This document shows, piece by piece, positions 3,795 through 18,800 of a DNA stretch of 18,800 bases; position 1 is the first letter of the stretch, and each line of letters begins with the position of its first letter. The position numbers were made by a program, and so were the translations under genes. The stretch is from Magnetospirillum sp. (lineage in GTDB: Bacteria > Pseudomonadota > Alphaproteobacteria > Rhodospirillales > Magnetospirillaceae): assembly GCA_020217035.1 (NCBI GenBank), contig JAIWOG010000050.1, forward strand, positions 1 through 18,800, given 5' to 3'. Below the pieces are notes generated by a model that worked only from the letters and a program-made list of their open reading frames with translations, was not told where the DNA came from and did not search any database.

Positions 3795-3804
3795 TCCACG
3801 CAAC

Positions 3805-3831
3805 ACCGCCCCGGGCAACCGGGGCGGTTTT
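3805..3831 (+). terminator. Intrinsic terminator of the adhesin gene
   Basis: A perfect 10-bp GC-rich stem (3805-3814 with 3819-3828) is closed by a GCAA tetraloop (3815-3818, GNRA type) and followed by a short T run (3828-3831) and further T-rich bases. It lies 10 bases after the adhesin stop codon and just before the 3' end of the opposing small gene, so it mainly ends the adhesin transcript. Confidence 0.85.
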
Positions 3832-3840
3832 CGTTTGGGG

Positions 3841-4035
3841 TCAGTCGTAGAATCCTTCGGGCGGGCGCATGACCCCTTCGCCGCCCAGCCTTTGCCCGTG
3901 GGCGAAGGCTTCCTCGCAATCGGCGACGAAGGTGCGGATGGCGGAAACCGCGCAATCTTGCGGGCTTTTGCCCAGCCGCGCGGCCACTTGGCGCAGGCGG
4001 TTTTCCAGGTCGCGGTCCAGCGGGATGTCCAGCAT
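3841..4035 (-). CDS. Small ribbon-helix-helix-like protein (64 aa)
   Basis: A short protein starting MLDIPLDRDLENRLRQVAAR, followed by LGKSPQDCAVSAIRTF. A short basic/hydrophobic beta strand, then two amphipathic helices separated by a Gly-Lys-Ser/Thr turn, is the pattern of ribbon-helix-helix (CopG/ParD/Arc-type) DNA-binding proteins. A distinctive tail (VMRPPEGFYD) follows. I chose the ATG at 4035 over an in-frame TTG at 4050 because a GGAGG (4041-4045 on the + strand as CCTCC) lies 5 bases upstream of the ATG and would fall inside the gene if TTG were used. A TATAAA (4060-4065, - strand) could be a -10 element. No toxin gene adjoins it, so it is not an obvious toxin-antitoxin pair. It is divergent from prfC by 55 bp. 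The fold assignment is moderate and the function is unknown; it could be an autoregulator or an orphan antitoxin. Confidence 0.72.
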   Translation of the reverse strand: MLDIPLDRDLENRLRQVAARLGKSPQDCAVSAIRTFVADCEEAFAHGQRLGGEGVMRPPEGFYD

Positions 4036-4040
4036 CGGTG

Positions 4041-4045
4041 CCTCC
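4041..4045 (-). promoter_or_regulatory. Ribosome binding site fixing the start of the RHH gene
   Basis: GGAGG on the - strand, 5 bases before the ATG at 4035. Its position favours the 64-residue form over the 69-residue form that would start at the TTG at 4050. Confidence 0.7.
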
Positions 4046-4090
4046 GTCAATTTCCTTGATTTATAGCGTCATTCGCGACAAAAACCCGCC

Positions 4091-5677
4091 ATGACTTCGC
4101 TCGCCCAAGAAACGGCCCTGCGCCGCACCTTCGCCATCATTTCCCACCCCGACGCGGGTAAGACCACGCTGACGGAAAAGCTGCTGATGTTCGGCGGCGC
4201 CATCCAGATGGCCGGCGCCGTGCGGGCGCGCGGCGAGCAGCGGCGCACCCGGTCCGACTGGATGGCCATCGAGAAGGAACGCGGCATTTCGGTGTCGGCC
4301 TCGGTGATGAGCTTCGAGCATGAAGGACTGTCCTACAACCTGCTGGACACGCCGGGCCACGAAGACTTTTCCGAGGACACCTACCGCACCCTGACCGCCG
4401 TCGATTCGGCGGTGATGGTGCTGGACGCCGCCAAGGGCATCGAGACCCAGACCTTGAAGCTGTTCGAGGTCTGCCGCATGCGCGACATGCCCATCGTCAC
4501 CTTCATCAACAAGGTGGACCGCGAGGGCCGCGAGCCCATCGACCTGCTGGACGAGGTGGAAAAGACCCTGGCGCTGGACGTGGCGCCGGTGACCTGGCCC
4601 ATCGGCATGGGCCGCGACCTGAAGGGGGTCTACGACCTGGTCAACGACCGCGTCATCATGTTCGACCCCGGCCGCGGCGACCACATCGTCGAAACCGCGG
4701 TGGACGCGCCGCTGGACAGTCCCGAACTGGACAAGGCGGTGGGGGCGGCGGCGGCCGAGCGCCTGCGCGAGGAAGTGGAACTGGTGCGCGGCGGCTATCC
4801 GGAATTCGACCTGGAAAGCTTCCGTGCCGGTCACATGACCCCGGTGTTCTTTGGTTCGGCCCTGAAGACCTTCGGCGTCGCCCAGTTGTTGCGCGGCATC
4901 GGTCGCCTTGCCCCCAGTCCGCTGGCCCGCAAGACCGACAAAAGGCTGGTGGAGCCCACCGAGGACAAGGTCGCCGGTTTCGTCTTCAAGATCCAGGCGA
5001 ACATGGACCCCAACCACCGCGACCGCATCGCGTTTTTCCGCATCTGCTCGGGCCGTTTCAAGCGCGGCATGAAGCTGAAGCATGTGCGGTCCGGCAAGGT
5101 GATGGCCTTGGTCAACCCGGTGTTCTTCCTGGCGCAAAGCCGAGAACTGGCGGAAGAGGCGTTTCCCGGCGACATCATGGGCATTCCCAACCACGGCCAA
5201 TTGCGCATCGGCGACACGCTTTCCGAAGCCGAGGACATGAACTTCCTGGGCATTCCCACCTTCGCCCCGGAAGTGCTGCGCCGGGTGCGCCTGGACGACC
5301 CCATGAAGGCCAAGCAATTGAAGAAGGCCCTGGACGACCTGGCGGAAGAAGGCGTTTCCCAGGTGTTCAAGCCGGTGGACGGGTCCACCTGGATCGTCGG
5401 CGTCGTCGGCCCGCTGCAATTCGACGTGCTGACCACCCGCATCGAAAGCGAATACGGCATCAAGGCCGGGTTCGAGGATGGCGGCTTCGTCACCGCCCGC
5501 TGGGTGGCCTGCGACGATTCCAAGGAAATGGACAAGTTCGCCACTGTCCACAAATCCAACATGGCGGAGGACCGGGAAGGGGCGCTGGTCTACCTGGCCC
5601 GCAACACTTGGCAACTGGGCCGTGCCCAGCAGGATTACCCCACCGTCCGCTTCACCGCGACGCGCGAGCAGCATTAG
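4091..5677 (+). CDS. prfC: Peptide chain release factor 3 (RF3)
   Basis: A translational GTPase of 528 residues; E. coli RF3 has 529 and the two match nearly end to end by recall. RF3 uses GTP to speed release of RF1/RF2 from the ribosome after termination and acts in the cytoplasm. Visible motifs are G1 SHPDAGKTT (18-26), switch region RGIS (64-67), G3 DTPGH (86-90), the RF3-type stretch EDFSEDTYRTLTAVD, G4 NKVD (140-143) and a G5-like GSAL near 255. The C-terminal part contains the RF3 signatures GFVFKIQANMDP and VGPLQFDV. The ATG at 4091 gives the family N-terminus (ETALRRTFAIISHPDAG), but no clear Shine-Dalgarno precedes it. The gene appears to stand alone, closed downstream by two hairpins. 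Confidence 0.98.
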   Translation: MTSLAQETALRRTFAIISHPDAGKTTLTEKLLMFGGAIQMAGAVRARGEQRRTRSDWMAIEKERGISVSASVMSFEHEGLSYNLLDTPGHEDFSEDTYRTLTAVDSAVMVLDAAKGIETQTLKLFEVCRMRDMPIVTFINKVDREGREPIDLLDEVEKTLALDVAPVTWPIGMGRDLKGVYDLVNDRVIMFDPGRGDHIVETAVDAPLDSPELDKAVGAAAAERLREEVELVRGGYPEFDLESFRAGHMTPVFFGSALKTFGVAQLLRGIGRLAPSPLARKTDKRLVEPTEDKVAGFVFKIQANMDPNHRDRIAFFRICSGRFKRGMKLKHVRSGKVMALVNPVFFLAQSRELAEEAFPGDIMGIPNHGQLRIGDTLSEAEDMNFLGIPTFAPEVLRRVRLDDPMKAKQLKKALDDLAEEGVSQVFKPVDGSTWIVGVVGPLQFDVLTTRIESEYGIKAGFEDGGFVTARWVACDDSKEMDKFATVHKSNMAEDREGALVYLARNTWQLGRAQQDYPTVRFTATREQH

Positions 5678-5696
5678 AGCGCCGTTGCGGCGCTCT
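5676..5696 (+). terminator. Hairpin overlapping the prfC stop codon
   Basis: A perfect 9-bp inverted repeat (5676-5684 with 5688-5696) with a 3-base loop; the last two bases of the prfC stop TAG form the first pairs. No T run follows, so alone it is a weak terminator. It may protect the mRNA 3' end or act with the stronger hairpin just downstream. Confidence 0.5.
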
Positions 5697-5725
5697 GGCG
5701 AGGGGCAAGCATTAACTCATAACAA

Positions 5726-5757
5726 AAAGGCCGGTTCCCCCTCCGGAACCGGCCTTT
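5726..5757. terminator. Bidirectional terminator between prfC and the cytochrome gene
   Basis: A perfect 13-bp stem (5726-5738 with 5745-5757) with a 6-base C/T-rich loop. The left side is preceded by an A run (5724-5728) and the right arm ends in TTT, so it can work on both strands. It sits between the convergent 3' ends of prfC (5677) and the cytochrome gene (5778). Confidence 0.85.
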
Positions 5758-5777
5758 CGCTTCCCGCCAAGGGAAAA

Positions 5778-6149
5778 TCAGTTGTTCTTGGCACCCTGCT
5801 TGATCCACTTGCGGATCAGGTCGCGGTCGCAGGTGCTGAGCTTCTTCTTGCCGTGGGGCATTTGCAGCGACTTGTCGGCCTTGCCGTCCAGCAGCACCAT
5901 CAGGTTGCTGGTCACCGGGTCGCCGGGGGTGATCATCGGGCCGTGCTTGGTGCCCTTCATCAGCCCTTCATAGGACGTCATGTCCAGGCCGCTCTTGTCC
6001 AGGCCGTCGCCGCCGGGTTGGTGGCAGACGGTGCAGCGCACTTGCAGGATCGGCTGGATGTCTTCGGAGAAGCTGACCGGCTCTTCCTTGGCCAAGGCGG
6101 GGCTGGCGAAAGCCGCGAAAGCCGCGGCGACAAGGATTGATTTCTTCAT
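5778..6149 (-). CDS. Small periplasmic c-type cytochrome (PSCyt1-like)
   Basis: A 123-residue precursor with a clear Sec signal peptide (MKKSILVAAAFAAFASPALA, cleavage after ALA at about 20), so the product is periplasmic. One haem-attachment motif CTVCH lies at 39-43, and the likely distal ligand Met is in LQMPHGK (Met97). The start (FSEDIQPILQVRC) and end (LIRKWIKQGA) match the pattern of the Planctomycete-type cytochrome C domain found in many proteobacterial monohaem cytochromes. An extra Cys107 is present. The ATG at 6149 has an AGGGGAGAA purine stretch 5 bases upstream, a good ribosome site. No oxidase or reductase partner adjoins it, so its redox partner is unknown; electron transfer is inferred from the family. 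Confidence 0.9.
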   Translation of the reverse strand: MKKSILVAAAFAAFASPALAKEEPVSFSEDIQPILQVRCTVCHQPGGDGLDKSGLDMTSYEGLMKGTKHGPMITPGDPVTSNLMVLLDGKADKSLQMPHGKKKLSTCDRDLIRKWIKQGAKNN

Positions 6150-6192
6150 GGGTGTTCTCCCCTGTCCCTAGTTAAGTGAATTGCGTCCCTTC

Positions 6193-6208
6193 CTGGATAT
6201 TACTCCAG
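6193..6208. repeat. Short inverted repeat upstream of the cytochrome gene
   Basis: CTGGA and TCCAG (6193-6197, 6204-6208) flank a 6-base AT-rich centre, 44 bases upstream of the cytochrome start and 128 upstream of trpB. The size fits a dimeric regulator site, but short repeats arise easily by chance. I see no convincing -35/-10 pair for either gene in 6150-6335. Confidence 0.25.
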
Positions 6209-6286
6209 TTTGAGGTGTCCGTCCCGAGCTAATGGGCTTGCTTGCAAAGGGGGCATTTCGCGTCGGCAACAAAATCCTCCCCCCCG

Positions 6287-6314
6287 GGGGCGCTTCATGC
6301 TTTATTAGCGCCCC
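6287..6314 (+). promoter_or_regulatory. Hairpin in the presumed trpB leader
   Basis: A perfect 7-bp GC stem (6287-6293 with 6308-6314) with a 14-base AT-rich loop, ending 21 bases before the trpB ATG. The left arm is directly preceded by a C run (6279-6285) that could compete for the same G bases. If the transcript starts upstream, the structure would sit next to the ribosome site. No T run follows, so it is not an ordinary terminator. Confidence 0.35.
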
Positions 6315-6335
6315 ACCTTTGTTGGATGGATTGGG

Positions 6336-7555
<1,220 letters not shown>

Positions 7556-7556
<1 letters not shown>

Positions 7557-8368
7557 TGAGCCGCCTGGAAGCGCGTTTCGCCAAGCTGGCCGCCGAGAAC
7601 CGGGCGGCGCTGGTGACCTATTCCATGGCCTTCGACCCGGATCGGGCGACCAGCCAGGAATTGCTCAACGGCTTGCCGGGGGCGGGGGCCGACATCATCG
7701 AGTTCGGCATGCCGTTCACCGATCCCATGGCCGATGGCCCGGCCATCCAATACGCCGCCCAGCGGGCGTTGGAATCCGGCGGCACGCTGAAGGGCGTGCT
7801 TGAGATGATCAGCACTTTCCGCCAGGGCGACAACGAGACCCCGGTGGTGCTGATGGGCTATTACAACCCCATCTATTCCTGGGGCCCGGAAAAGTTCTGC
7901 GCCGACGCGGCCAAGGCCGGCATCGACGCCCTGATCATCGTCGACCTGCCGCCGGAAGAAGCTGACGAGTTGCTGCCCCATTGTCGGGCGGGCGGCATCG
8001 ACTTCATCTTCCTGACCACGCCGACCAGCGACGATTCCCGTCTGCCGACCGTCGTCGGCAACGCGTCCGGGTTCGTCTATTACGTCTCCATCGCCGGCAT
8101 CACCGGCACGGCCAGCGCCAGCGCCACCGCCATCGGCGACGCGGTCGCCCGCATCAAGACGCATACGTCGTTGCCGGTTTGCGTCGGTTTCGGTATCAAG
8201 ACCCCGGAACAAGCGGCCGAGGTGGCGCGTCTGGCCGATGGCGCCGTGGTCGGCTCGGCCATCGTGCAAGCCGCCGCCGACGCCAAGGCGCGGGGCGAGA
8301 GCCCGGTCCAGGCCGCCCTGGCCCTGGTCCGTGAACTGGCTGCCGGCGTACGCGGCGCCCGCGGTTAA
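7556..8368 (+). CDS. trpA: Tryptophan synthase alpha chain
   Basis: A 270-residue TIM-barrel enzyme (E. coli has 268) that cleaves indole-3-glycerol phosphate to indole and glyceraldehyde 3-phosphate; indole is channelled to TrpB. Both catalytic acids fall at the E. coli positions: Glu49 in IIEFGMPF and Asp60 in TDPMADGP. The phosphate-binding end is seen as GFGIKTPEQ and GAVVGSAIV. The start is the ATG at 7556, overlapping the trpB stop by one base; longer reading of the same frame from 7301 lies inside trpB and is not real. One oddity: the loop normally ending in a Gly-Asp-Pro reads TYSMAFDPD (residues 21-29), with Phe in place of the usual Gly. Confidence 0.99.
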
Positions 8369-8386
8369 CGAAAAGGACTTTCCGCC

Positions 8387-9307
8387 ATGAACTGGTTGAC
8401 CAATTACGTCCGTCCCAAGCTTCAGGCCCTGGTGCGGCCCAAGGAAGTGCCGGATAACCTGTGGCACAAATGCCCCAGCTGCGGTCACATGATCTTCCAT
8501 CGCGACCTGGAAAAGGCGCTGTCGGTTTGCCAGCATTGTGGCCACCACATGCGCCTGTCGGTGAAGAAGCGGTTGGAAATGCTGTTCGATGACGGCAAGT
8601 ATACCCGCATCGAATTGCCGAAGATTCCCGACGATCCGCTGAAGTTCAAGGATCAGAAGCGTTACACCGACCGCCTGAAGGACACCCGCGCCAAGACCGG
8701 CGAGCAGGACGCCATCGTCGTCGGCCATGGCCGGTGCGGCGGCCAGAACGTGGTCATCGCCGCCTTCAACTTCGATTTCCAAGGCGGCTCCATGGGCGTC
8801 GCCGTGGGCGAGGGCATCGTCGCCGCCGCCGAGTTGGCGGTGTTGCAGGACGCGCCCTTGATCGTGGTGCCGGCCTCGGGTGGCGCCCGCATGCAGGAAG
8901 GCATCCTGTCCCTGATGCAGATGGCGCGGACCACGGTGGCCGTGGACAAGGTCAAGGAAAAGCGTCTGCCTTACATCGTGCTGCTGACCGACCCCACCAC
9001 CGGCGGCGTGTCGGCCAGCTTCGCCATGCTGGGCGACATCGCCATCGCCGAGCCGGGCTGCATCATCGGCTTCGCCGGGGCCCGCGTCATCGAAAGCACC
9101 ATCCGCGAGAAGCTGCCGGAAGGCTTCCAGCGGGCCGAATACCTGCTGGAACACGGCATGATCGACATGGTGGTCCACCGCAAGGATTTGCGCGAGACCC
9201 TGGGCCGGGTGATTTCGCTTTTGCGCAACAAGGCCCCGGCCGGCGACCTGGTGATGCTGCCGGTGGACACCCCCGATTACGACCCGGAATCCGCCGCAAG
9301 GATGTAA
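8387..9307 (+). CDS. accD: Acetyl-CoA carboxylase carboxyltransferase subunit beta
   Basis: A 306-residue subunit which, with AccA, transfers the carboxyl group from biotin-carrier protein to acetyl-CoA to form malonyl-CoA, the first committed step of fatty acid synthesis. The N-terminal zinc ribbon is intact: Cys29, Cys32, Cys48 and Cys51 (CPSC...CQHC). The carboxyltransferase (crotonase-like) domain follows, with [38 protein letters not shown] and GFAGARVI, all expected of AccD. An AAGGA (8373-8377) lies 9 bases before the ATG. It is 18 bases after trpA, in the usual alphaproteobacterial order trpA-accD-folC. Confidence 0.98.
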
Positions 9308-9308
9308 C

Positions 9309-10613
9309 ATGGTCGATGCCGTCCTGCAGCGTCTGTCGCAACTGCATCCCAAGGTCATCGACCTGTCCTTGGACCGGGTGCTGACGCTGCTGGACAAGCT
9401 GGGCCATCCGCAGAACCGTTTGCCGCCGGTGGTCCATGTGGCCGGCACCAACGGCAAGGGCTCGACGGTGGCGTTCCTGCGGGCCTTCGCCGAGGCGGCG
9501 GGACTGCGCACCCATGTCTACACCTCGCCGCATCTGGTGCGCTTCGCCGAACGCATCCGGGTGGGCGGACAGATCATCAACGATGACGCGCTGCTGGCGC
9601 TGTTGGAAGAGATCGAGGCGGTCAACGCTGGCGATCCCATCACCTTCTTCGAGATCACCACGGCCGCCGCCTTCCTGGCGTTTTCCCGCAACCCGGCCGA
9701 TCTGGTGATCCTGGAAACCGGCCTGGGCGGGCGGCTGGACGCCACCAACGTGGTCGAACGTCCGGCGCTGACCATGTTGACCCCCATCGCCATGGACCAT
9801 GAAAGCTTCCTGGGCGGCCGTATCGAGGCCATCGCGGCGGAAAAAGCCGGCATCATGAAGCGTGGCATCGCCTGTGTCGTCGCCGACCAAAGCCGCAAGG
9901 TGACCAAGGTGCTGGAAGCCCGGTCGTTGGAAATGGGCGTGCCCTTGATCAAGGAAGGCAAGGATTTCTTCGTCCGTGCCACAACCGACGGCGGCGTGCT
10001 GTACAAGGGCGTGGGGTTGGAACTGACCCTGCCGGCGCCGTCACTGGCCGGCGCCTTCCAGATGCGCAACGCCGGCATGGCCCTGGCCGCCATGGAACGC
10101 CTGACCCGGGGCGAAAAGCCGCCGGTCCTGCCGGAAATCGCCCCGGCGGCCTTTGCGCTTGGCATGAAAAGCGCCCAATGGCCGGCGCGGTTGCAGCGTT
10201 TGACCCAAGGACCGTTGGTCGACCTGCTGCCCGATGGCTGGGAGCTTTACCTGGACGGCGGCCACAATCCGCATGCCGCCGAAGCCATCGCCCGCCATGC
10301 CCGGTCGTGGCGCGACAAGCCGCTGATGGGGATTTTCGGCATCCTGGCCAACAAGGACGTGGATGGGTACATGGAGCACATGGCCACCCGCTTCCACACA
10401 TTGCGCACGGTGGCCATTCCCGGTGAAAGCGCCACCTTGTCGGCGGAAGACGCGGCGGCCTCGGCCGCCCAGCATTTCTGCATGGATGCCAAGCCGGCGC
10501 ATAGTGTCGAGGACGCCCTGCGCCAATTGGTCGCGCTCGGTCCGCAGCCGGCCAGGGTGTTGATTTGCGGCTCTTTGTACCTAGCTGGGTTCGTATTGGC
10601 CGACCATCACTGA
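9309..10613 (+). CDS. folC: Bifunctional dihydrofolate synthase / folylpolyglutamate synthase
   Basis: A 434-residue Mur-ligase-family enzyme that adds glutamate to dihydropteroate and then to folates, using ATP. Motifs are the P-loop GTNGKGST (46-53), the TSPHL folate-site motif (72-76), MDHESFLGG, EKAGIMK (carbamylated-lysine region) and DGGHNPHAA of the C-terminal ligase domain. It starts one base after the accD stop codon, with AAGGAT (spanning the end of accD) as ribosome site, so it is almost certainly co-transcribed and perhaps coupled to accD. Length is normal for the family. Confidence 0.97.
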   Translation: MVDAVLQRLSQLHPKVIDLSLDRVLTLLDKLGHPQNRLPPVVHVAGTNGKGSTVAFLRAFAEAAGLRTHVYTSPHLVRFAERIRVGGQIINDDALLALLEEIEAVNAGDPITFFEITTAAAFLAFSRNPADLVILETGLGGRLDATNVVERPALTMLTPIAMDHESFLGGRIEAIAAEKAGIMKRGIACVVADQSRKVTKVLEARSLEMGVPLIKEGKDFFVRATTDGGVLYKGVGLELTLPAPSLAGAFQMRNAGMALAAMERLTRGEKPPVLPEIAPAAFALGMKSAQWPARLQRLTQGPLVDLLPDGWELYLDGGHNPHAAEAIARHARSWRDKPLMGIFGILANKDVDGYMEHMATRFHTLRTVAIPGESATLSAEDAAASAAQHFCMDAKPAHSVEDALRQLVALGPQPARVLICGSLYLAGFVLADHH

Positions 10614-10625
10614 ACGGGACCGATC

Positions 10626-10823
10626 ATGCGTCTTTTCCTGGCGATCTTCCTGCCCTGGTTGCAGTTCTTCACCATCGGCCGCCCCTTCGCCGGCATCATC
10701 TGCCTGCTGCTTCAGATCACCCTGATCGGCTGGCTGCCGGCGGCCATCTGGTCGGTCTATGCTTTGTCGCAGTACAAGACCGACGAAAAGATCCGCCAGG
10801 CCATGGGCGGCGGCGGGGCCTAA
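10626..10823 (+). CDS. YqaE/Pmp3-family small membrane protein
   Basis: A 65-residue hydrophobic protein with two membrane segments (about 2-19 and 21-45) joined by a short turn, then a polar tail (YKTDEKIRQAM) and Gly-rich end. The pattern FLAIFLPWLQFF...GWLPAAIWSVYAL resembles the YqaE/Pmp3 proteolipids, known in yeast and plants for membrane-potential and salt-stress effects; their bacterial role is poorly defined. The usual double-proline LPP is LPW here, so it is a divergent member. ACGGGA (10614-10619) lies 6 bases before the ATG, and the gene begins 12 bases after folC, suggesting it is the last gene of the trpB-folC operon. Its stop TAA overlaps the stop of the convergent methyltransferase gene. 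Confidence 0.82.
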   Translation: MRLFLAIFLPWLQFFTIGRPFAGIICLLLQITLIGWLPAAIWSVYALSQYKTDEKIRQAMGGGGA

Positions 10824-10832
10824 CCCCGCCGC
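10810..10832. terminator. Shared hairpin at the convergent 3' ends
   Basis: A perfect 9-bp GC stem (10810-10818 with 10824-10832) with a 5-base loop containing both stop codons: TAA of the YqaE-like gene (10821-10823) and, on the other strand, TAG of the methyltransferase gene (10820-10822). There is no T run on either side, so it may slow or stabilise 3' ends more than act as a classical terminator. Confidence 0.5.
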
Positions 10833-12145
10833 AGCACCGCCAACGCTTCCAGGTGGGGGGAATAGGGGAACTGGTCGATGGGGGTGACCGTCTCGACCCG
10901 ATAGCCCGCCTTGACCAGGATGGCCAGGTCACGGGCCAGGGTGGCGGGGTTGCATGACACCGCCACCACCACGGCTGGACCGGCCTCGGCCAGTTGTTCG
11001 GCCTGGGCTTGGGCGCCGGCACGCGGCGGGTCGAAGACCACCGCTTGGTATTTCTTCAATTCATGGGCCAGAAGCGGGCGGCGGGCCAAGTCGCGCACCT
11101 CGGTGGTCAGCTTCAACCCCGCTTGGTTGGCGGCGGCTTCCAGCACCCGGATCGGGGCTTCGTCGCCTTCCACCGCGTGGACGTGGGCACCGCTGCGGGT
11201 CAGCGGCAGGCTGAAAGAACCGCAGCCGCAATAAAGGTCGGCCACCGACTTGGCGGCGCCGACAGCCTCGGCCACCAGCTTGGCGATAGCCTGTTCGCCG
11301 CCCTGCGTCGGTTGCAGGAAATTGCCGGGGGGCGGTTCGATCGGCATTTCGGCGAAACGCACCAAGGCGGGCTTGCGCCGCGCGATGGGCTCGACGAAGC
11401 CGGAACCGGGGCGCCGCCACGACAGCCGCGCAAGGTCGGTGGCATCGGCGAAGGCGGCCAGTTTCTCGCGGTCGAACAAATCCAGCCGGGCATCCATCTC
11501 GACCAGCACGTCCAGGCCGTTTTCGGTCAAGGTGACGGTGACGTCGCCATCCTCGCCGGCCGGCACCGTCTCGGTCAGGATGGAACGCAACGGCGCCAGG
11601 AAAGCGGCGATGGGGCGTTCCAGCAACAGGCAGTCGTCCAGGTCGACGATGGTGTGGCTGGCCCGGGCGTTGTAGCCCAGATGGGTGGCGCCCTTCGACC
11701 GGTGGACGGCGAAGACGGCGCGACGGCGCGATCCTGGGGGCACCCGCAGCATGTCGCCAAAGGCGATGTCGCCCAGGCCCTGGCGGGCCAACTGGGTGAC
11801 CAGCAGGTCGCGTTTCCAGGTGGCGTAAAGGTCGTCGTCCAGATGTTGCAGCGAACAGCCGCCGCAGCGCCGGTAATGCGGACAGGGGGGGGCAACCCGG
11901 CCGCTCCCCGCTTCGGTGACCTCGACCAGGGCGGCGGCCAGGCCGTCGCCACGCTTGCCCTCGATGCGGGCGACCACCTTGTCACCGGGAAGGGTGAAGG
12001 GCACGAACACCTGGTCGTCGCCCAATCGTGCCACCCCGTCGCCGCGGGCGCCGATGGCGGTGATCTCGACCTCGACCAGACGCGGTGGCGAAGCCGGGCG
12101 GGGCTTGGCCCGACCGGGGGAACGAATGTTCTTTTTCTTGATCAT
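10820..12145 (-). CDS. TrmA/RlmD-family 23S rRNA (uracil-5-)-methyltransferase
   Basis: A 441-residue SAM-dependent RNA methyltransferase. An N-terminal TRAM RNA-binding domain (about 22-80) precedes an iron-sulfur cluster site with Cys88, Cys94, Cys97 (CPHYRRCGGC) and a fourth Cys172, as in E. coli RumA/RlmD. The Rossmann domain shows SAM motif VADLYCGCGS (301-310), FDPPRAGA (371-378), the catalytic nucleophile Cys398 in VSCNP, and the C-terminal FPYSPHLE with the likely base Glu433. The family makes m5U in 23S rRNA (U1939 for RlmD, U747 for RlmC); which site is not decidable here, so no symbol is given. The start is the ATG at 12145, which overlaps the lipoprotein stop as ATGA; a longer frame to 12490 lies inside that gene. 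It ends the Mla-type operon, where its presence is functionally unexplained. Confidence 0.93.
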   Translation of the reverse strand: MIKKKNIRSPGRAKPRPASPPRLVEVEITAIGARGDGVARLGDDQVFVPFTLPGDKVVARIEGKRGDGLAAALVEVTEAGSGRVAPPCPHYRRCGGCSLQHLDDDLYATWKRDLLVTQLARQGLGDIAFGDMLRVPPGSRRRAVFAVHRSKGATHLGYNARASHTIVDLDDCLLLERPIAAFLAPLRSILTETVPAGEDGDVTVTLTENGLDVLVEMDARLDLFDREKLAAFADATDLARLSWRRPGSGFVEPIARRKPALVRFAEMPIEPPPGNFLQPTQGGEQAIAKLVAEAVGAAKSVADLYCGCGSFSLPLTRSGAHVHAVEGDEAPIRVLEAAANQAGLKLTTEVRDLARRPLLAHELKKYQAVVFDPPRAGAQAQAEQLAEAGPAVVVAVSCNPATLARDLAILVKAGYRVETVTPIDQFPYSPHLEALAVLRRG

Positions 12146-12726
12146 GGTCTCACGGCTTGGGCCAAGTCGGCGGTGAAGGCATTCAAAATCTGGGATGTGG
12201 CCCTGGTCAGCGACTGGACCTCGGCTTCGGGGCCGGCGGCGGCCGGGGTTTCGACCTGATAGGTCTTCAGCAGCAGCAAGGTGCCGTCGCGGGCCGAAAC
12301 CACCGACAATTCCAAGGCCGCCACCGCCTTGCCGGCATGGGCGTGCATTTCGAAACGGTTCAGGCGTCCACGCAACATCCAGTCGGGCTGCACCCGGGTG
12401 TCGGGGGTGACGACGGTGGCGGCGATTCCCGATTGACGCAGCGCGTCCACCAAGGCGCCTTGCCACAGGGCGGTGGGCGGCTCGGCCCACAGGTCATAAC
12501 GATAGCGGCCCAGGGCGCCGTCGGCTTCCTGATAGGCCAGGGGGCGTTCCGACAACACGCCGTCGGTGGTCAGGCGGCCGACCTCGATCACCGCCAGGGG
12601 CGGGGTGGCGAAGGCGCGGGCGACGGGGGCGGCGTCCAGGCGGTAGAAGCGGTCCTTGGGCGGCGCTTGCTGGGCGCAGGCGGCCAGGGAGGCGGCCAGG
12701 GCGGCGGTGATCAACAGGTGTCGCAT
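12142..12726 (-). CDS. ABC-type transport auxiliary lipoprotein (PqiC-like)
   Basis: A 194-residue precursor with a lipoprotein signal: MRHLLITAALAASLAAC, lipobox LAAC with Cys17 as the lipidated residue. The mature part (FYRLDA..., VIEVGRLTTDGVLSERPLAY, then YDLWAEPPTALWQGALVDAL) fits the ABC_trans_aux/PqiC family, outer-membrane or periplasmic lipoproteins that work with MCE proteins in inter-membrane lipid transport. The residue after Cys is Ala, compatible with outer-membrane sorting. It follows mlaD by 11 bases with AAGGAA as ribosome site, and its TGA overlaps the methyltransferase ATG (12142-12145). It probably replaces the separate MlaA/MlaC parts, which are not seen here. Confidence 0.86.
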   Translation of the reverse strand: MRHLLITAALAASLAACAQQAPPKDRFYRLDAAPVARAFATPPLAVIEVGRLTTDGVLSERPLAYQEADGALGRYRYDLWAEPPTALWQGALVDALRQSGIAATVVTPDTRVQPDWMLRGRLNRFEMHAHAGKAVAALELSVVSARDGTLLLLKTYQVETPAAAGPEAEVQSLTRATSQILNAFTADLAQAVRP

Positions 12727-12737
12727 GGCATCATTCC

Positions 12738-13688
12738 TTAACGCCGTCCGGGGCCGTCCTCGGCCCCCTTGGTGCCGCCGATCAGCACGCCGGGATTGTC
12801 GCGGATCTGGCGGCTGAATTCATGCACGTTGCGGCTGGTGCCTTCAAGGTTGTAGGCGATGGAATCGATGTTGCGGGCCAGGGCCGCCAGGGTGTGGCGC
12901 AGATCCTTCATGGATTGGTCGATGGTGCCCTTGTTGCCGTCGATGGTGGCGACCACGTTGTCCAGCTTCTTCCTGGTTTCCACCAGGCCGGCGGTCAGGT
13001 CGGCGGTGTTGGCCAGGGATTGCGAGATGGCGGCGGCGTTTTCGTCGTTCAGCACCTTGCCCGAAAGCGTCCCGGTGATCCTTTGCACGTCGCTGGTGAT
13101 GCGCGGCGCCTTGGTCGCCAGGTCGGTGGAGATGGTCACCAGGTTGGCCAGCAATTCGGGGGCCTGTTTTTGCATGATGACGCCCAGCGCCTCGACCTGG
13201 GTGTTCAGCGTCGCCATCAACGGCAACAGGCCCTGGTCGTTCAGTTTGCTCACCTCGCCGGCCATGGCGTTCATGGTGGCGAAGATGTTGGCGGCGGCGC
13301 CGCCGGCGATTTCCGAGCCCGGAGGCAGCAGCTTGTCGGACGTGCCCCCCTTGATGTCCAAGGTCGGCGCCGCCAGGATGCCCGGCGCGGTGATGCGGGC
13401 GACGGAGCCTTCCGGCACCGCCCAGCCTTCGCGCACCCCCATGGTGACGCGGAACCAGGTGCGGTTGTCGCGCTGCAAGCCCTGGATGTCTTCCACCTGG
13501 CCGACGACGAAGCCTTCATAGGTGACCTTGCTGCCGTATTTGATGCCGGTGACGTTGGGGAGCGTGGTGGTGTAGACGTCGTTGTCGCCGGTCTTGCCGG
13601 TCAACAGCGCCACCGACACGACCAGGGCCGCCAACATGGCCAGGACGAAGCCGCCGACGACGACGTAGTTGGTGCGCGAATCCCTCAT
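12738..13688 (-). CDS. mlaD: MCE-domain lipid transport substrate-binding protein MlaD
   Basis: A 316-residue inner-membrane-anchored MCE protein. One N-terminal membrane helix (about 8-30, YVVVGGFVLAMLAALVV) is followed by a single MCE domain (about 38-130, with GIKYGSKVTYEGFVVGQVEDI and GILAAPTLDIKGG). A long helical, coiled-coil-like region runs to the C-terminus, ending RDNPGVLIGG, typical of longer MCE proteins. E. coli MlaD has 183 residues and one MCE domain, so the extra length is the helical tail, which may form a channel or needle toward the periplasmic lipoprotein partner. The start ATG overlaps the mlaF stop as ATGA (13685-13688). Direction of lipid transport cannot be told from sequence. 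Confidence 0.93.
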   Translation of the reverse strand: MRDSRTNYVVVGGFVLAMLAALVVSVALLTGKTGDNDVYTTTLPNVTGIKYGSKVTYEGFVVGQVEDIQGLQRDNRTWFRVTMGVREGWAVPEGSVARITAPGILAAPTLDIKGGTSDKLLPPGSEIAGGAAANIFATMNAMAGEVSKLNDQGLLPLMATLNTQVEALGVIMQKQAPELLANLVTISTDLATKAPRITSDVQRITGTLSGKVLNDENAAAISQSLANTADLTAGLVETRKKLDNVVATIDGNKGTIDQSMKDLRHTLAALARNIDSIAYNLEGTSRNVHEFSRQIRDNPGVLIGGTKGAEDGPGRR

Positions 13689-14524
13689 AACCCCGTCCTT
13701 CCCTGGGTCGGCTGGTTGGCGTGCTTTTCCTTTTCCCCCAACAGACGCCGCAAATAGGCGTCGGGATCGACCTCGGCTTCCTCGGTGCGACGGTTCAGCA
13801 GGTTCTGGATGCGTTCGTTGGGCGAGTTGCGGATGGCGTCGACGGTGTCCAGGGCCAACACCTCGCCCTTGTCCAGCACGCAGATGCGGTCGGCGATCTT
13901 GAAGGTGCTGTCCAGGTCGTGGGTGACGACGACGATGCTCATGCCCATGGCGTCGCGCAGGCGCAAGATCAGGTCGTCGATGGAAGACGCGACAACCGGG
14001 TCCAGCCCGGCGCTGGGCTCGTCGCAGAACAGCAGCTTGGGGTCCATGACGATGGCCCGCGCGAAGGCGGCACGCTTGATCATGCCGCCCGACAACTCGG
14101 CGGGCATCAGATGCTCGAACCCGGCCAACGACACCACTTCCAACTTCAGGCGGGTGACGATGCCGATGGTCATCTCGTCCAGGTCGGTATGTTCGCGCAA
14201 CGGCAGGGCGATGTTGTCGCCGACGCTCATGGACGAAAACAGGGCGCCTGACTGGAAGGCCACCCCCATGCGGGTGCGCAGATCCTGCATTTCCAAGGAC
14301 GACAGGGTGTTGATGTCCTTGCCCAGGATGCGGATGGTCCCGGATGTCGGCCGCAGCAATCCCAGAAGGTGGTTCAAAAGGGTGGTCTTGCCCGACCCCG
14401 ATCCGCCCATGATGACGAAGATTTCGCCGGGATTGACGCTGAGCGACACGTTCTTCAGCACCTGGCGGTCGCCGTAATGGGTGTCGAGGTTGATCACTTC
14501 GATGCTGGGGGGGGCGTTGCTCAT
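13685..14524 (-). CDS. mlaF: Mla-type ABC transporter ATP-binding protein MlaF
   Basis: A 279-residue ABC ATPase driving the lipid transporter at the inner face of the cytoplasmic membrane. Motifs are Walker A GGSGSGKTT (40-48), Q-loop Gln91, signature LSGGM (144-148), Walker B LLFCDEP with Asp168-Glu169, D-loop SAGLDP, and H-loop His202 in VTHDL. The signature reads LSGGM, as usual in the MlaF/Ttg2A subfamily. The start is the ATG at 14524, which overlaps the mlaE stop as ATGA (14521-14524); the open frame continues upstream to 15217 only inside mlaE. The C-terminal extension after about 240 (ERIQNLLNRRTEE...) is short, charged and probably helical, in the place where E. coli MlaF contacts its partner subunits. 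Confidence 0.96.
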   Translation of the reverse strand: MSNAPPSIEVINLDTHYGDRQVLKNVSLSVNPGEIFVIMGGSGSGKTTLLNHLLGLLRPTSGTIRILGKDINTLSSLEMQDLRTRMGVAFQSGALFSSMSVGDNIALPLREHTDLDEMTIGIVTRLKLEVVSLAGFEHLMPAELSGGMIKRAAFARAIVMDPKLLFCDEPSAGLDPVVASSIDDLILRLRDAMGMSIVVVTHDLDSTFKIADRICVLDKGEVLALDTVDAIRNSPNERIQNLLNRRTEEAEVDPDAYLRRLLGEKEKHANQPTQGRTGL

Positions 14525-15318
14525 CGCGTCACCAGGAAGACGAAGATCATGTCGGTGATGACGATGGCGGAAATGGCGTGGACCACGCTGCGGGTGGTCA
14601 TGCGTCCCACCCCTTCGGCGCCGCCCGACACCGAAGCGCCGTTGACCACGCCGACGATGGTGACCAGCACGCCGAAGATGGCGGCCTTGGCCAGACCGTG
14701 CAACAGGTCGTTCAACTTCAGGATGGAGACGACCTCGTCGGCGTAAGCCGCCAGCGAGCCTTGCAATTCGATGGCGATGTAAAGCCCGGCGGCGAACAGC
14801 CCGACCAGGTCGGCCCACAGCGTCAACAACGGCATCAGGATCATCATCGCCATCAAGGGCGGCGCCACCAGAAAGCGCACCGGGTTGATCCCCATGACCG
14901 AAAGCGCGTCGATTTCCTGGTTGATGCGCATGGTCCCCAGCCGGGCCGCCAGGGCCGAGCCGGATCGCCCGGCCACCAGGATGCCGGTGATGAGGGGCGA
15001 GAACTCGCGCACGATGGACAACGCCACCCCCAAGGTGACGCGGCTTTCGGCGCCGAAGGTCTTCAGCGTGTAGATGCCCTGGATGGCCAGCATCAGCCCG
15101 ATGGTGGTGGACAGCACGGTGATGATGGGCAGCGCCGCGATGCCGATGTCCATGGCTTGCGCCGCCACCGACGGCATGCGCACCGGCTGGCGGCGCCAGC
15201 GGCCCAAAACCAGCCAATAGACCGCCTGGCCGAACAGCGTGGCGGCGAAACCGAATTCGGCCACCCCGGCGGCCGCCTTGCGGCCCAGTCTTTCCAGCCA
15301 GTTGAGGGCATCCTTCAC
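14521..15318 (-). CDS. mlaE: Mla-type ABC transporter permease MlaE
   Basis: A 265-residue integral membrane permease (E. coli MlaE 260). Several hydrophobic segments are visible, and the family signature is clear: FGAESRVTLGVALSIVREFSPLITG, then GRSGSALAARLGTMRINQEIDAL and MGINPVRFLVAPP. The conserved Glu in NQEIDAL region is retained. The start is a GTG at 15318, which gives the normal family length; no good ATG is near. The STAS gene ends only 7 bases upstream, and the ribosome site would lie within the end of that gene, so translation is likely coupled. The next gene, mlaF, overlaps by 4 bases. Confidence 0.95.
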   Translation of the reverse strand: MKDALNWLERLGRKAAAGVAEFGFAATLFGQAVYWLVLGRWRRQPVRMPSVAAQAMDIGIAALPIITVLSTTIGLMLAIQGIYTLKTFGAESRVTLGVALSIVREFSPLITGILVAGRSGSALAARLGTMRINQEIDALSVMGINPVRFLVAPPLMAMMILMPLLTLWADLVGLFAAGLYIAIELQGSLAAYADEVVSILKLNDLLHGLAKAAIFGVLVTIVGVVNGASVSGGAEGVGRMTTRSVVHAISAIVITDMIFVFLVTR

Positions 15319-15325
15319 GCCGTCT

Positions 15326-15652
15326 TCAGGCCGACAGGCCCGCCTCCACCGTGTCGGCCAAGGCGAAGACCTTGTCCAGGCGGGCCAGTTGCAGGACCCG
15401 CATGGCCGGTTGGCTGACGGCGGCCAGGACGAACCGGGTGCCGTTCTTCCGTGCCGCCTGATAGGCTTCGACCAGCGAGGCGATGCCCGACGAATCGATG
15501 TATTCCACCGCCGTCATGTCCACCACCACCGGGCGGCGATCGAACATCAGCTCCATCAGATGCTTGCGGACACTGGGCGAGTGTTGCAGGTCGACCTCGC
15601 CGACCAGGGCCACGACCACCGCCCCATCCCGTTCACGGCTTTCGATTTTCAT
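15326..15652 (-). CDS. STAS-domain protein (anti-anti-sigma / MlaB-like)
   Basis: A 108-residue single STAS domain. The key stretch VVVDMTAVEYIDSSGIASLV carries Asp53-Ser54-Ser55-Gly56, the phosphorylation loop of SpoIIAA/RsbV-type antagonists, where a switch kinase phosphorylates a Ser. The Leu/Ile-rich strand-helix pattern and length (SpoIIAA about 117, MlaB about 97) fit either an RsbV-type antagonist or MlaB, the STAS subunit of the E. coli Mla ABC complex. Its start (ATG at 15652) overlaps the end of the upstream phosphatase gene by 20 bases, with AAAAAGGA about 9 bases before it; its stop lies 7 bases before mlaE. Position thus supports both roles. I cannot decide between them from sequence. 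Confidence 0.93.
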   Translation of the reverse strand: MKIESRERDGAVVVALVGEVDLQHSPSVRKHLMELMFDRRPVVVDMTAVEYIDSSGIASLVEAYQAARKNGTRFVLAAVSQPAMRVLQLARLDKVFALADTVEAGLSA

Positions 15653-17324
15653 GTCCGCCGATCCTTTTTGCCATGCGCAACAGATTGCCCGTTCCCGGCG
15701 GTGGTGCCAAGAACTCTACGTTGTCCATCACTTCGCGAATGAAATGGGTTCCCAATCCGCCCGGCCTGACGTCGTTCAAGTCGCGGGGGCACACCGAAGC
15801 CGGGTCGATGGTGGGCGCGAAGTCGATCAGGCGGATGTCCACGTGGTCGTGGTCGCCGCGCAGTTGCACGATCATCTCGCCCTCGCCGCCGCCATAGGCG
15901 TGGCGGATGACGTTCTGGCAGGCTTCGTCCACCGCCAGCACGATGTCGGGGATCACCGGGCCGCAAACGCCCAAGGCGGACAGGGCGTGGCCCAGGTCGT
16001 GGCGGATGGCCGACAGGCTGGCCGGGCGGGCCTGGTATTGGCGGTTCATGGCCGGCTGGTCGCGGACATCCTCGACCACCAGCATGGTCAGGTCGTCCTT
16101 CAGGGCCAAACCGGCCTCGGCCACCTGGGCCACCAGCGCCCGCAGACGGTCGGGGGCGGGGCGAACGCGGTGGGGGGCCAGCATGCGGGCAACGCCGTCA
16201 GACCCCAGCATGGCTTCGGTGCCGCCCGCCTCGGTCAAGCCATCGGTGAACAGGTACAGGGCGCCGCCATTCAATTCGATGGTCGATTCCGGGCAGCCCT
16301 GGGAGAACAGGTCGGGGACGATGCCCAAGGGCGGCATGCCTTCGTCGATGCGGGTCAGGCTGGCCCCACAGCACAGCAGCGGCGGCTCGTGCCCGGCATT
16401 GGCCAGCACCACATTGCCGGCGGCGGGGTCCAGGATGCCGGCGACCATGGTGACGAACATGCCGGCCGAACTGGTTTCCGCCAGTTCGGAATCGATGGCC
16501 GCCAGCACCGCGCCGGGACCATCCAGACGCTTGGCCAGGCAGCGGAACAAGCTGGCTGTCTTGGACATCAGCATCGCGGCGTTCATGCCCTTGCCCGACA
16601 CGTCGGCGATGGCGAAGGCGATCTTGCCGCCTGTCAGTTCCACTACGTCGAAGAAGTCGCCCGACACCCCACGCGCCGGCAGGTTGATGCCGTGAATGGG
16701 GAATTCCGGCGGACGCTGGGGGGGCAGCATGGCGCGTTGGATGTCGGCGGCCAGCGACAATTCGTGCTTCAGCGCCTTTTGTTCCGCCATGTCGGCGGCT
16801 TGGCGGGCGTTGATCAGGGCCAGGGCGGCGGACGCCGCCAGGGCTTGCAGCACCCGGCGGTCGTCGGCGTCGAACGAGCCGCCGCCCTTCTTGTTGAACA
16901 ATTCGATGGCGCCCAGTCGTTCGTCGCGCACCGCCATGGGGGCGCACAGGATCGAACGGGTAACGAAGCCGGTGTTGTTGTCGACCTGGTGGGCGAAGTC
17001 GGGGTCGTCGGTGGCGTCACGCACCAATTCGGTGGCGTTGCGGTTGACCGCCCGCCAGACGATGCCCTGGCCCTTGGGCAGGCGCAGGCCGGTGACGTCG
17101 GCGGGGCCGAAACACGCGCGGCACACCAATTCGCCGGTACCCGGCTCCATCAGGAAGATGGACGCCGCCTCGGCCTCCATGCGGCTGGAAATATGGGCCA
17201 GGCCCAGGCGCAGGGTTTCCTCGATGTCCAGCGAGCGGGCGAAATCCGCCGTCATCTCGGCGATCAGGTCCAGGTCGTCGGCAAGGGCGGCCGGCAGGTG
17301 TTGGGGACGTTCTTCCACGCGCAT
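15633..17324 (-). CDS. GAF - PP2C (SpoIIE) phosphatase - HATPase regulator
   Basis: A 563-residue soluble signalling protein with no signal peptide or membrane helix. An N-terminal GAF sensor domain (about 20-175, SRMEAEAASIFLM...GAIELFNKKGGG) is followed by a linker helix with the classic SLAADIQRAMLPP. The SpoIIE-type PP2C phosphatase domain (about 205-418) keeps GVSGDFFDV (Asp223), ADVSGKGMNAA, TDGLTEA (Asp361) and KDDLTML (Asp410/411), so it looks active. The C-terminal GHKL/HATPase domain (about 430-555) has an N-box VDEACQNVIRHAY (Glu467, Asn471), DFAPTID, and GGLGTHFI, as in RsbW/SpoIIAB kinases. Together these suit both phosphorylation and dephosphorylation of a STAS protein, the product of the next gene. 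The ribosome site before the ATG at 17324 is weak. Confidence 0.95.
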   Translation of the reverse strand: MRVEERPQHLPAALADDLDLIAEMTADFARSLDIEETLRLGLAHISSRMEAEAASIFLMEPGTGELVCRACFGPADVTGLRLPKGQGIVWRAVNRNATELVRDATDDPDFAHQVDNNTGFVTRSILCAPMAVRDERLGAIELFNKKGGGSFDADDRRVLQALAASAALALINARQAADMAEQKALKHELSLAADIQRAMLPPQRPPEFPIHGINLPARGVSGDFFDVVELTGGKIAFAIADVSGKGMNAAMLMSKTASLFRCLAKRLDGPGAVLAAIDSELAETSSAGMFVTMVAGILDPAAGNVVLANAGHEPPLLCCGASLTRIDEGMPPLGIVPDLFSQGCPESTIELNGGALYLFTDGLTEAGGTEAMLGSDGVARMLAPHRVRPAPDRLRALVAQVAEAGLALKDDLTMLVVEDVRDQPAMNRQYQARPASLSAIRHDLGHALSALGVCGPVIPDIVLAVDEACQNVIRHAYGGGEGEMIVQLRGDHDHVDIRLIDFAPTIDPASVCPRDLNDVRPGGLGTHFIREVMDNVEFLAPPPGTGNLLRMAKRIGGHENRKP

Positions 17325-17356
17325 CGGGCGATGATGCCTTGGTTTGCCCTGGTGGT

Positions 17357-17383
17357 AAAATCCCTTTTGATGGAAAGGGTTTT
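17357..17383 (-). promoter_or_regulatory. A/T-flanked hairpin upstream of the GAF-PP2C gene
   Basis: CCCTTT (17362-17367) pairs with AAAGGG (17374-17379) across a 6-base loop. Flanking AAAA (17357-17360) and TTTT (17380-17383) extend the stem to 10 pairs with one bulged base (17361). On either strand it looks like a small terminator or an operator-like palindrome. It lies 33 bases upstream of the phosphatase start codon, so it could be a leader element of the operon. Function is unknown. Confidence 0.4.
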
Positions 17384-17451
17384 GCCGTGAAAAAAGCGTG
17401 AAGTTTCAGGATGTTGTTCGGTGAATTTTTTGTTGCTACGCACTGTGCACG

Positions 17452-17479
17452 TTGACTTGATGGGGCTGCTTGCGAGAAT
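17452..17479 (+). promoter_or_regulatory. Candidate sigma-70-type promoter for the EAL gene
   Basis: TTGACT (17452-17457, 5 of 6 to consensus) and GAGAAT (17474-17479, 4 of 6) are 16 bases apart. A start near 17486 would leave a leader of about 30 bases ahead of the EAL gene. A small GCAC-T-GTGC palindrome (17440-17448) sits just upstream of the -35. Moderate support only. Confidence 0.4.
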
Positions 17480-17517
17480 CCTCAGACCGTGGCGGGGATT
17501 AAGCGCAGGATAAAAAC

Positions 17518-18800
17518 ATGTTCACGTTGGCGAATGCCCTGGGCGAAATGGACGCGCCGCCGCAGCACAAGCGGCAGGCGATGCCTGCGCATCGGCCGTT
17601 TCCCATTCCTGGGCGGCCTTCGGTACAACCCTCGGACGATCACTGGAACGAGATCATGTCCACTTTGGACGTGGCCTTCCAGCCCATCGTCAACATCCAT
17701 ACCGGGGCCTGCTACGGTTACGAAGCTTTGCTGCGCAACACCGCCGAAGCCGGGTTCAACTCGATCAGCGACTTCTTCGACACCTGCCACGCCCTGGGCG
17801 TGCTGGTCGACATCGAGATGGCGCTGCGTGAGAAGGCGGTGATCAAGTTCCAGGAAATGGAACACTGGCGCCAATCCAAGCTGTTCCTGAACCTGGACAA
17901 CCGTGGTCTGGAACTGCACGGCGACCTGCCGGCGCGGACGCGCACCATGCTGGAACGCTATGGCATCGAGGAAAGCCAGGTGGTGTTCGAGATTTCCGAA
18001 CAGCATCCCATTGGCCAACCCAACCACGCGGCGGCCATCTTCAACCACTACAAGCGCAACAACTTCCGCCTGGCGGTGGACGATTTCGGCACCGGATTCT
18101 CGGGGTTGCAGTTGCTGTATTTCGCCGCCCCCGACTTCCTGAAGATCGACCGCTTCTTCGTGTCCGACATCGCCAGCGATTCCAAGAAGAAGCTGTTCTT
18201 GTCCCAGATCGTCAACATCGCCCATCTGCTGGGGGTGGTGGTGCTGGCCGAAGGGGTCGAGACCGAACGCGAATACTTCGTCTGCAAGGATATCGGCTGC
18301 GACCTGATCCAGGGCTATCTGGTGCAGCGGCCGGACCGCGACATGAGCACCATGCTGGCCCATTACGAGCACATCGAACGCTTGTCGCGACGTGAACGCC
18401 GGGTGGCGGTGTCGGACCAGAAACTGATCGCCGACCAGATCGCCCAGGTCGAGCCCATCCCGCTGAATTCTTCCATGGAAGACGTGTTCGAACGCTTTCG
18501 CGCCGACAAGTCGGTGACCTTCTTCCCGGTGGTGGACGCCGCCGGCGAGCCGGTGGGCATCGTGCGCGAGACCGAGTTGAAGGACTACACCTATTCGCTT
18601 TACGGCAAGGCGCTGATCTCCAACAAGACCTTGGGGCGACGGCTGAAGGATTTCGTCACCCGCTGCCCCATGGCCGACATCAACACCCGGGCCGAGCACA
18701 TCCTGCAAGCCTATTCGGCGGTGGAAAAGTCGGAAGGCATCATCATCGTCGACGACATGAAGTATGTGGGCTTCCTGTCGGCCCATTCGCTGCTGCGCGT
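17518..18800 (+). CDS. EAL-domain cyclic-di-GMP phosphodiesterase with CBS-like region (3' partial)
   Basis: The frame opens at the ATG at 17518 (AGGA 7 bases upstream) and has no stop to the right edge, giving at least 427 residues. A Pro-rich N-terminus of about 40 residues precedes an EAL domain (about 45-285). Catalytic signature residues look complete: YEALLR (Glu69), LNLDN (Asn125), FEISE (Glu158), VDDFGTGFSG (Asp188/Asp189), FLKIDRFF (Lys209), LAEGVETE (Glu245/Glu248) and QGYLVQRP (Gln265). It is therefore probably an active c-di-GMP phosphodiesterase. A linker (286-305) leads to a CBS-pair-like region (about 306-427), recognised by MEDVFERFRADKSVTFFPVV, GEPVGIVRE and IIIVDDMKYVGFLS. 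EAL-CBS proteins often continue into a GGDEF domain, which would lie outside the window. It is divergent from the phosphatase-Mla operon, 193 bp apart. Confidence 0.93.
   Translation, partial: MFTLANALGEMDAPPQHKRQAMPAHRPFPIPGRPSVQPSDDHWNEIMSTLDVAFQPIVNIHTGACYGYEALLRNTAEAGFNSISDFFDTCHALGVLVDIEMALREKAVIKFQEMEHWRQSKLFLNLDNRGLELHGDLPARTRTMLERYGIEESQVVFEISEQHPIGQPNHAAAIFNHYKRNNFRLAVDDFGTGFSGLQLLYFAAPDFLKIDRFFVSDIASDSKKKLFLSQIVNIAHLLGVVVLAEGVETEREYFVCKDIGCDLIQGYLVQRPDRDMSTMLAHYEHIERLSRRERRVAVSDQKLIADQIAQVEPIPLNSSMEDVFERFRADKSVTFFPVVDAAGEPVGIVRETELKDYTYSLYGKALISNKTLGRRLKDFVTRCPMADINTRAEHILQAYSAVEKSEGIIIVDDMKYVGFLSAHSLLR

Follow-up and report, generated by a model that had tools for sequence, protein, structure and literature searches.

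The stretch of DNA analysed here (hereafter the window) comprises 18,800 nucleotides from a Magnetospirillum sp. (assembly GCA_020217035.1, contig JAIWOG010000050.1, positions 1 to 18,800), and carries on its minus strand a run of six genes in which a putative partner-switching pair immediately precedes an Mla-type lipid transporter. In the order of reading, these genes encode (i) a 563-residue regulator (15633..17324) consisting, according to Pfam, of a GAF domain (residues 33-170), a PP2C/SpoIIE domain (232-418) and an HATPase_c_2 domain of the RsbW/SpoIIAB kinase type (431-553); (ii) a 108-residue, RsbV/SpoIIAA-like STAS protein (15326..15652), the proposed MlaB equivalent; (iii) an MlaE/MpcE-type permease of 265 residues (14521..15318) with no N-terminal STAS domain; (iv) an MlaF-type ATPase of 279 residues (13685..14524); (v) an MlaD-type MCE protein of the long form (316 residues, 12738..13688); and (vi) an outer-membrane lipoprotein of the PqiC/MpcA type (194 residues, 12142..12726). 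The models GAF, SpoIIE/PP2C, HATPase_c_2, STAS, MlaE, ABC_tran, MlaD and ABC_trans_aux all matched the window proteins above their cut-offs. Gene calls and Pfam thus agree with the gene order given in the first-pass annotation, and the gene calls reproduce the spacing it described: the regulator and STAS genes overlap by 20 bases, the GTG start of mlaE follows 7 bases after the STAS gene, and mlaE, mlaF and mlaD are joined by ATGA junctions.

As in Escherichia coli MlaFEDB, the locus encodes an MlaE permease, an MlaF ATPase, an MlaD MCE protein and one small STAS protein, with a C-terminal helix on MlaF and a serine or threonine at the STAS site. Unlike MlaFEDB, it is without MlaC and includes a long MlaD, a PqiC-type lipoprotein and a kinase-phosphatase encoded beside the STAS gene. 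The STAS protein also differs from E. coli MlaB in having an extra fifth strand and last helix, as judged from the model of a relative and the account of MlaB in PMC7367683, and it scores far below the cut-off of the MlaB model. The order of permease, ATPase, long MCE protein and PqiC-like lipoprotein without MlaC is that reported for Brucella Mpc (MpcEFDA, a Mla-Pqi chimera; PMC12436622), and the transporter is closer to this layout than to E. coli Mla. In Mpc, however, the STAS domain is described as fused to the permease, with no regulator mentioned (PMC12436622), whereas here STAS has a gene of its own, linked to that of a PP2C-kinase protein.

A search of 60 relatives recovered this MlaE clade in 46, and all 46 regions were compared. 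HATPase and STAS matches lie directly upstream of mlaE in 45 of them, spanning 19 families of the order, and all eight parts (GAF, PP2C, HATPase, STAS, MlaE, MlaF, MlaD, lipoprotein) are present in 38 of the 46 stretches. Among the incomplete ones, L087 and L102 lack GAF-PP2C, L076 lacks both regulator and STAS, L065 lacks everything after mlaE, L079 has no MlaF match, and L069, L089 and L091 have no lipoprotein match, the stretches of the last two ending inside or just after mlaD. At L065 (genome G007), regulator, STAS and mlaE are followed by frames resembling hydrogenase maturation genes, with no mlaF, mlaD or lipoprotein match, which may represent loss or misassembly.

We added 80 loci from named genomes (the best 80 of 585 relatives), 10 from a class sample and 5 from a phylum sample, giving 142 loci with 131 unique MlaE (one window copy included); seven with less than 1.4 kb upstream were left out. 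In the remaining 124 unique loci, each with at least 1.4 kb upstream, HATPase and STAS stand beside mlaE in 111, STAS alone in 7 and neither in 6. Where at least 2.6 kb was available (101 loci), we counted 84 with GAF-PP2C-HATPase-STAS, 6 with PP2C-HATPase-STAS but no GAF match, 3 with HATPase-STAS only, 5 with STAS only and 3 with none. The class sample alone contributed HATPase and STAS in 9 of its 10 loci other than our own. By name, these loci extend over Alphaproteobacteria (Paramagnetospirillum, Terasakiella, Dongia), Betaproteobacteria (Azonexus) and Gammaproteobacteria (Tahibacter); metagenome-assembled genomes deposited under the names Nitrospirota, Myxococcota, Deltaproteobacteria, Marinimicrobia and others are perhaps misbinned, and we do not claim those phyla.

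For comparison, the same profiles were applied to 14 other MlaE loci (nine with longer permeases and five of a housekeeping type, one of these from the window's own genome), and none had a STAS, HATPase, PP2C or GAF match. Five long permeases were scanned further, and all have an N-terminal STAS_2 match (above cut-off in L108, weaker in the other four, at E 3e-6 to 0.002), which is the Mpc layout (PMC12436622). The difference between 45 of 46 relatives and 0 of 14 other MlaE loci indicates a linkage beyond chance. Conservation of the pair next to mlaE, on which the first-pass annotation had staked its reading, is thus borne out, and sequence comparison supports the view that regulator and STAS are tied to the transporter across many lineages.

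In composition, the pair resembles SpoIIAA-SpoIIAB-SpoIIE and RsbV-RsbW-RsbU in comprising a STAS protein, a GHKL-type serine kinase and a PP2C phosphatase, and the folds match as well: in a structure model of a kinase-STAS fusion, built from an alignment of fusions and kinase-only rows, the domains match RsbV/RsbW and SpoIIAA/SpoIIAB. It differs from these switches in that the unit contains no sigma factor and its linked output is an ABC transporter, that kinase and phosphatase usually share one protein (PP2C and HATPase lie in one frame in 60 of the 90 loci scored and are separate in 30), and that the input domain is GAF or HDOD. Partner switches that do not target a sigma factor are known. 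One PP2C-kinase protein paired with a STAS protein is also the arrangement of HsbR-HsbA in Pseudomonas aeruginosa, CrsR-CrsA in Shewanella and SypE-SypA in Vibrio; unlike the regulator studied here, HsbR has a receiver domain as its input (PMC6482189), and the targets described for these systems are RpoS, FlgM, HsbD or a biofilm target rather than a transporter (PMC6482189, PMC8256260).

The physical association of kinase and STAS goes as far as fusion. At two loci from two species of one genus, the GAF-PP2C gene has ATGA at its end, and one frame then runs from the HATPase into STAS without a stop (L077:3735-4490 and L078:1740-2495). Three proteins among the matches listed (P0001, P0003 and P0004, 51-68% identical) likewise contain both kinase and STAS domains; the protein search scored 7995 candidates, and the P-numbered proteins come from the 120 listed of 689. 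Three loci (L087, L102, L151) have kinase, STAS and mlaE without PP2C, which points to kinase and STAS as the core. On the PP2C protein, an HDOD-like input replaces GAF in L173, L176, L178, L179, L180 and L185, and was confirmed by Pfam in all three tested (L173, L178, L185); the input therefore varies, and kinase, STAS and transporter are constant. At one locus, a tandem pair of STAS matches lies between HATPase and mlaE (L203:747-1465).

The residues on which a phospho-switch would depend are conserved throughout. The STAS motif D-S-S is kept in 123 of 123 sequences scored and the following glycine in 121; the N-box glutamate and asparagine, the G1 aspartate and the G2 glycines of the kinase are present in all 114 scored; and the metal-binding aspartates of the PP2C domain are present in all 106-107 scored. 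In the window STAS, the proposed phosphoacceptor is Ser54 (codon at 15491..15493, minus strand), which lies in the motif Y-I-D-S-S-G, aligns with the phosphorylated serine or threonine of STAS proteins and corresponds to the first serine of D-S-S, which we take to be the phosphorylation site in SpoIIAA. The site is reported to be homologous to Thr52 of MlaB (PMC7367683, PMC5016091). The alignments support the view that kinase, phosphatase and STAS protein all retain the residues that a phospho-switch requires.

A second feature concerns the ATPase. Most MlaF proteins of this clade end in a loosely defined [YF]LxRL-type motif, which was found in 106 of 107 scored from loci with HATPase and STAS, in 9 of 9 from STAS-only loci, in 4 of 6 from loci without STAS and in none of the 14 control MlaE loci. 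An alignment of 28 sequences shows no variation at Tyr257, Arg260 or Leu261. In an AlphaFold2 model of the window MlaF, the C-terminal extension runs as a coil and ends in a short helix at residues 254-261 (DAYLRRLL, 13742..13765), which, in the model, is comparable with the handshake helix of E. coli MlaF, where the extension is reported to dock Tyr261, Leu265 and Leu266 at the interface with MlaB (PMC7367683).

Where the linkage breaks, the separated parts mostly remain in the genome. In the seven STAS-only operons (from Marinicella, Lysobacterales and similar organisms), it is the STAS gene that stays with mlaE, the regulator having moved or been lost; retention of STAS in all seven is the behaviour expected of a transporter subunit. 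In six of these seven genomes, the regulator is found elsewhere as a single strong HATPase match in a frame of 560-618 residues that also holds GAF and PP2C; within about 1.5 kb on either side of the six relocated regulators, no STAS profile match occurs. Most STAS proteins of the STAS-only operons stop shortly past helix 3 (L191, L192, L195, L197-L199) and are in this reminiscent of the short MlaB. Among the six loci that lack both genes, L228 has a STAS-fused permease. In addition, G026 has STAS and HATPase at a distance of about 8 kb on the mlaE contig, and G712 (L166), which lacks STAS at mlaE, has a GAF-PP2C-HATPase-STAS set on another contig.

Presence of the pair also follows presence of the transporter. 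Close STAS and kinase matches were found in 14 of 14 transporter-positive genomes chosen from the 46; among 14 transporter-less relatives, 11 have neither and 3 have both (Fisher P of 3.4e-5, uncorrected for kinship; the negatives G017, G043 and G047 are less than 90% complete).

The window's own genome (3.54 Mb in 334 contigs) has two MlaE genes, the window copy and one on contig C106, where mlaE adjoins an alanine racemase gene and an MlaF gene and where the STAS profile PF01740 gave no match. This profile has 11 matches in the genome, of which the window STAS scores highest; the stretches around the others, read by eye, contain chemoreceptor-like, CheA/CheY-like and PP2C/HATPase proteins, and no transporter genes. 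One of them, on contig C68 (L003), encodes another PP2C-HATPase protein ahead of its STAS gene, with a chemoreceptor-like gene adjacent and no transporter genes nearby. The first-pass annotation had held that a separate mlaB homologue would speak against it. No gene in the genome exceeds the 90-bit cut-off of the MlaB model NCBIfam NF033618, and this includes the window STAS, which at 25 bits is not filed as MlaB and is MlaB-like only in its proposed working. Gene context supports it as the only MlaB candidate in the genome.

The genes for regulator, STAS and MlaEFD-lipoprotein are conserved as one unit, and we consider it likely that the STAS protein serves an Mpc/Mla-type transporter as its MlaB equivalent and is switched by the dedicated kinase-phosphatase of the same gene run. 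As to the way it works, we lean towards a transporter-gating partner switch, in which the serine kinase-phosphatase modifies the MlaB-type STAS subunit, MlaF stands in the position of the sigma factor, and GAF or HDOD sets lipid flux. By analogy with E. coli MlaFB, unphosphorylated STAS would bind MlaF by its helical face and hold it on MlaE, so that the pump runs; E. coli MlaB is reported to bind MlaF through helices 1-3, where Thr52 occupies the middle of the contact surface, and MlaF needs MlaB to remain on the complex (PMC7367683). By analogy with SpoIIAA/SpoIIAB and RsbV/RsbW, the HATPase domain would bind the same face of STAS and phosphorylate Ser54, whereupon phospho-STAS would leave MlaF and the pump would stop. 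Kinase and MlaF would thus compete for unphosphorylated STAS, MlaF taking the place held in known partner switches by a sigma factor or its regulator. A signal read by GAF (or by HDOD in some gammaproteobacteria) would activate PP2C, removing the phosphate and restoring the pump. A phospho-switch on the Mla transporter was also the proposal of the first-pass annotation, and it holds in part, in that the pair is tied to the transporter and the catalytic residues are kept; phosphorylation and its effect we infer, and the transporter is perhaps not the only client.

Several observations weigh against this interpretation. The E. coli MlaF extension is reported to be dispensable for MlaF-MlaB binding (PMC7367683), the MlaF of Veillonella parvula, which is without MlaB, is described as having a shorter extension (PMC10665443), and STAS-fused MlaE loci lack the MlaF motif. 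The equivalent of Ser54 is also kept in STAS proteins without a linked regulator, and in the genome of L188, the seventh STAS-only locus, no such kinase was found; the serine may therefore have a structural or catalytic role instead, as the T52A variant of E. coli MlaB would suggest by analogy. Two other STAS genes of the own genome score 26-28 bits on the MlaB model, slightly above the window STAS. The fusion model has a pTM of 0.64, at which the domain arrangement is unreliable, and we draw no interface claim from it. Three further genomes from the group with neither gene at mlaE (G424, G271, G713) have no close module STAS (best matches 84 bits, 66 bits and none). The clade is also uncommon beyond its order: with the own genome counted, it occurs in 11 genomes of the class sample (289) and in 7 of the phylum sample (398). 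Finally, the transporter is absent from G016 and G054, which retain regulator and STAS, and in G055 mlaE is an 85-residue remnant and the lipoprotein gene a remnant too. We accordingly rejected the MlaF motif as proof of STAS binding, because of the STAS-fused loci without it, and serine conservation alone as proof of kinase control, because the serine is also kept in regulator-free operons.

G016 and G054 also favour the best of the alternatives, a partner switch of general use that is merely co-transcribed with the transporter and in reality acts on a client encoded elsewhere, be it a sigma factor, an anti-sigma factor or a c-di-GMP enzyme. In G054, another gene follows STAS. In G016, the STAS gene is followed by a methyltransferase 60% identical to the one that follows the lipoprotein gene in the window, an adjacency that makes it seem that the four transporter genes were cleanly lost and the switch retained. 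Since these two genomes keep the pair, the transporter may not be its sole client. Proteins of the HsbR/CrsR type in P. aeruginosa and Shewanella, which combine receiver, PP2C and kinase domains, are reported to act on RpoS, FlgM and HsbD (PMC6482189), and the own genome has 11 Sigma70_r2 matches. None of these 11 is on the window contig, however, and sigma-like genes were found in only 3 of 151 loci examined (137 of this MlaE clade and 14 others); the gene unit itself includes no sigma or anti-sigma target. A nearer candidate client, of the c-di-GMP enzyme type, is encoded by a divergent EAL-CBS gene (17518..18800, plus strand) that runs off the window. The first-pass annotation, in naming the transporter as the only effector, overlooked this gene. 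An EAL gene lies divergently upstream in 14 of the 46 relatives, but the other 32 have none in the fetched stretch, and we rejected it as part of the module, regarding it as a neighbour outside the conserved unit. Together with the absence of both kinase and STAS from 11 of the 14 transporter-less genomes, and with the retention of STAS beside mlaE whenever the regulator is displaced, these counts make a general switch with its client elsewhere unlikely, although it deserves to be kept in mind.

An opposite sign of control, in which phospho-STAS would be the supporting form and the GAF-gated phosphatase would turn the transporter off, is in our estimate rather improbable. It draws on P. aeruginosa, where phosphorylated HsbA is reported to be the form that binds HsbD and HsbR (PMC6482189), and on MlaB T52A, which retains MlaF binding and assembly and blocks ATPase activity (PMC5016091), so that the hydroxyl or its phosphate is perhaps needed. 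Against it stand the lowered MlaF binding of the phosphomimetic MlaB T52E, and the report that SpoIIAA, RsbR and RsbS lose their binding partners once the equivalent site is phosphorylated (PMC7367683). Less probable still is a STAS protein that serves constitutively as an MlaB-like subunit and is never phosphorylated, with a regulator that has another STAS protein as its target or is a leftover: the serine is indeed kept without a linked kinase and the 10 further STAS matches of the genome could be substrates, but the kinase-STAS overlap, the fusions and the conserved catalytic set in all three activities argue otherwise, as a leftover would decay.

Of the remaining features of the window, a gene of the TRAM / tRNA (uracil-5-)-methyltransferase family (10820..12145, minus strand) overlaps the stop of the lipoprotein gene by ATGA, and the gene run therefore continues past the lipoprotein; this gene is probably only co-transcribed with the transporter genes. 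At 264-3794 on the plus strand lies a long, low-complexity repeat protein frame with the look of a surface adhesin.

In the open-licence literature, we found no description of a kinase or phosphatase linked to mla or mpc genes; every part of the unit is of a known kind, and their union is undescribed in the literature of this type that was searched. Two papers on E. coli Mla (2016 and 2020) proposed that phosphorylation at the SpoIIAA-type site regulates MlaB, leaving the identity of the kinase open (PMC5016091, PMC7367683). A phylogenomic study centred on Veillonella is described as having sought MlaB by synteny with an MlaB model (PMC10665443), and could have passed over RsbV-like proteins such as these.

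With a kinase and a phosphatase encoded beside, overlapping or fused to an MlaB-like STAS protein, the question of MlaB phosphorylation becomes directly testable with four purified proteins. If the transporter-gating switch proposed here is correct, it would settle if MlaB-type subunits undergo phosphorylation and which enzyme is responsible, and ABC transport would join the outputs of partner switching, giving fast control of intermembrane lipid traffic in which a cytoplasmic GAF or HDOD sensor sets lipid flux within seconds. The SpoIIAA mechanism would then have a second use, one outside transcription and conserved in three proteobacterial classes.

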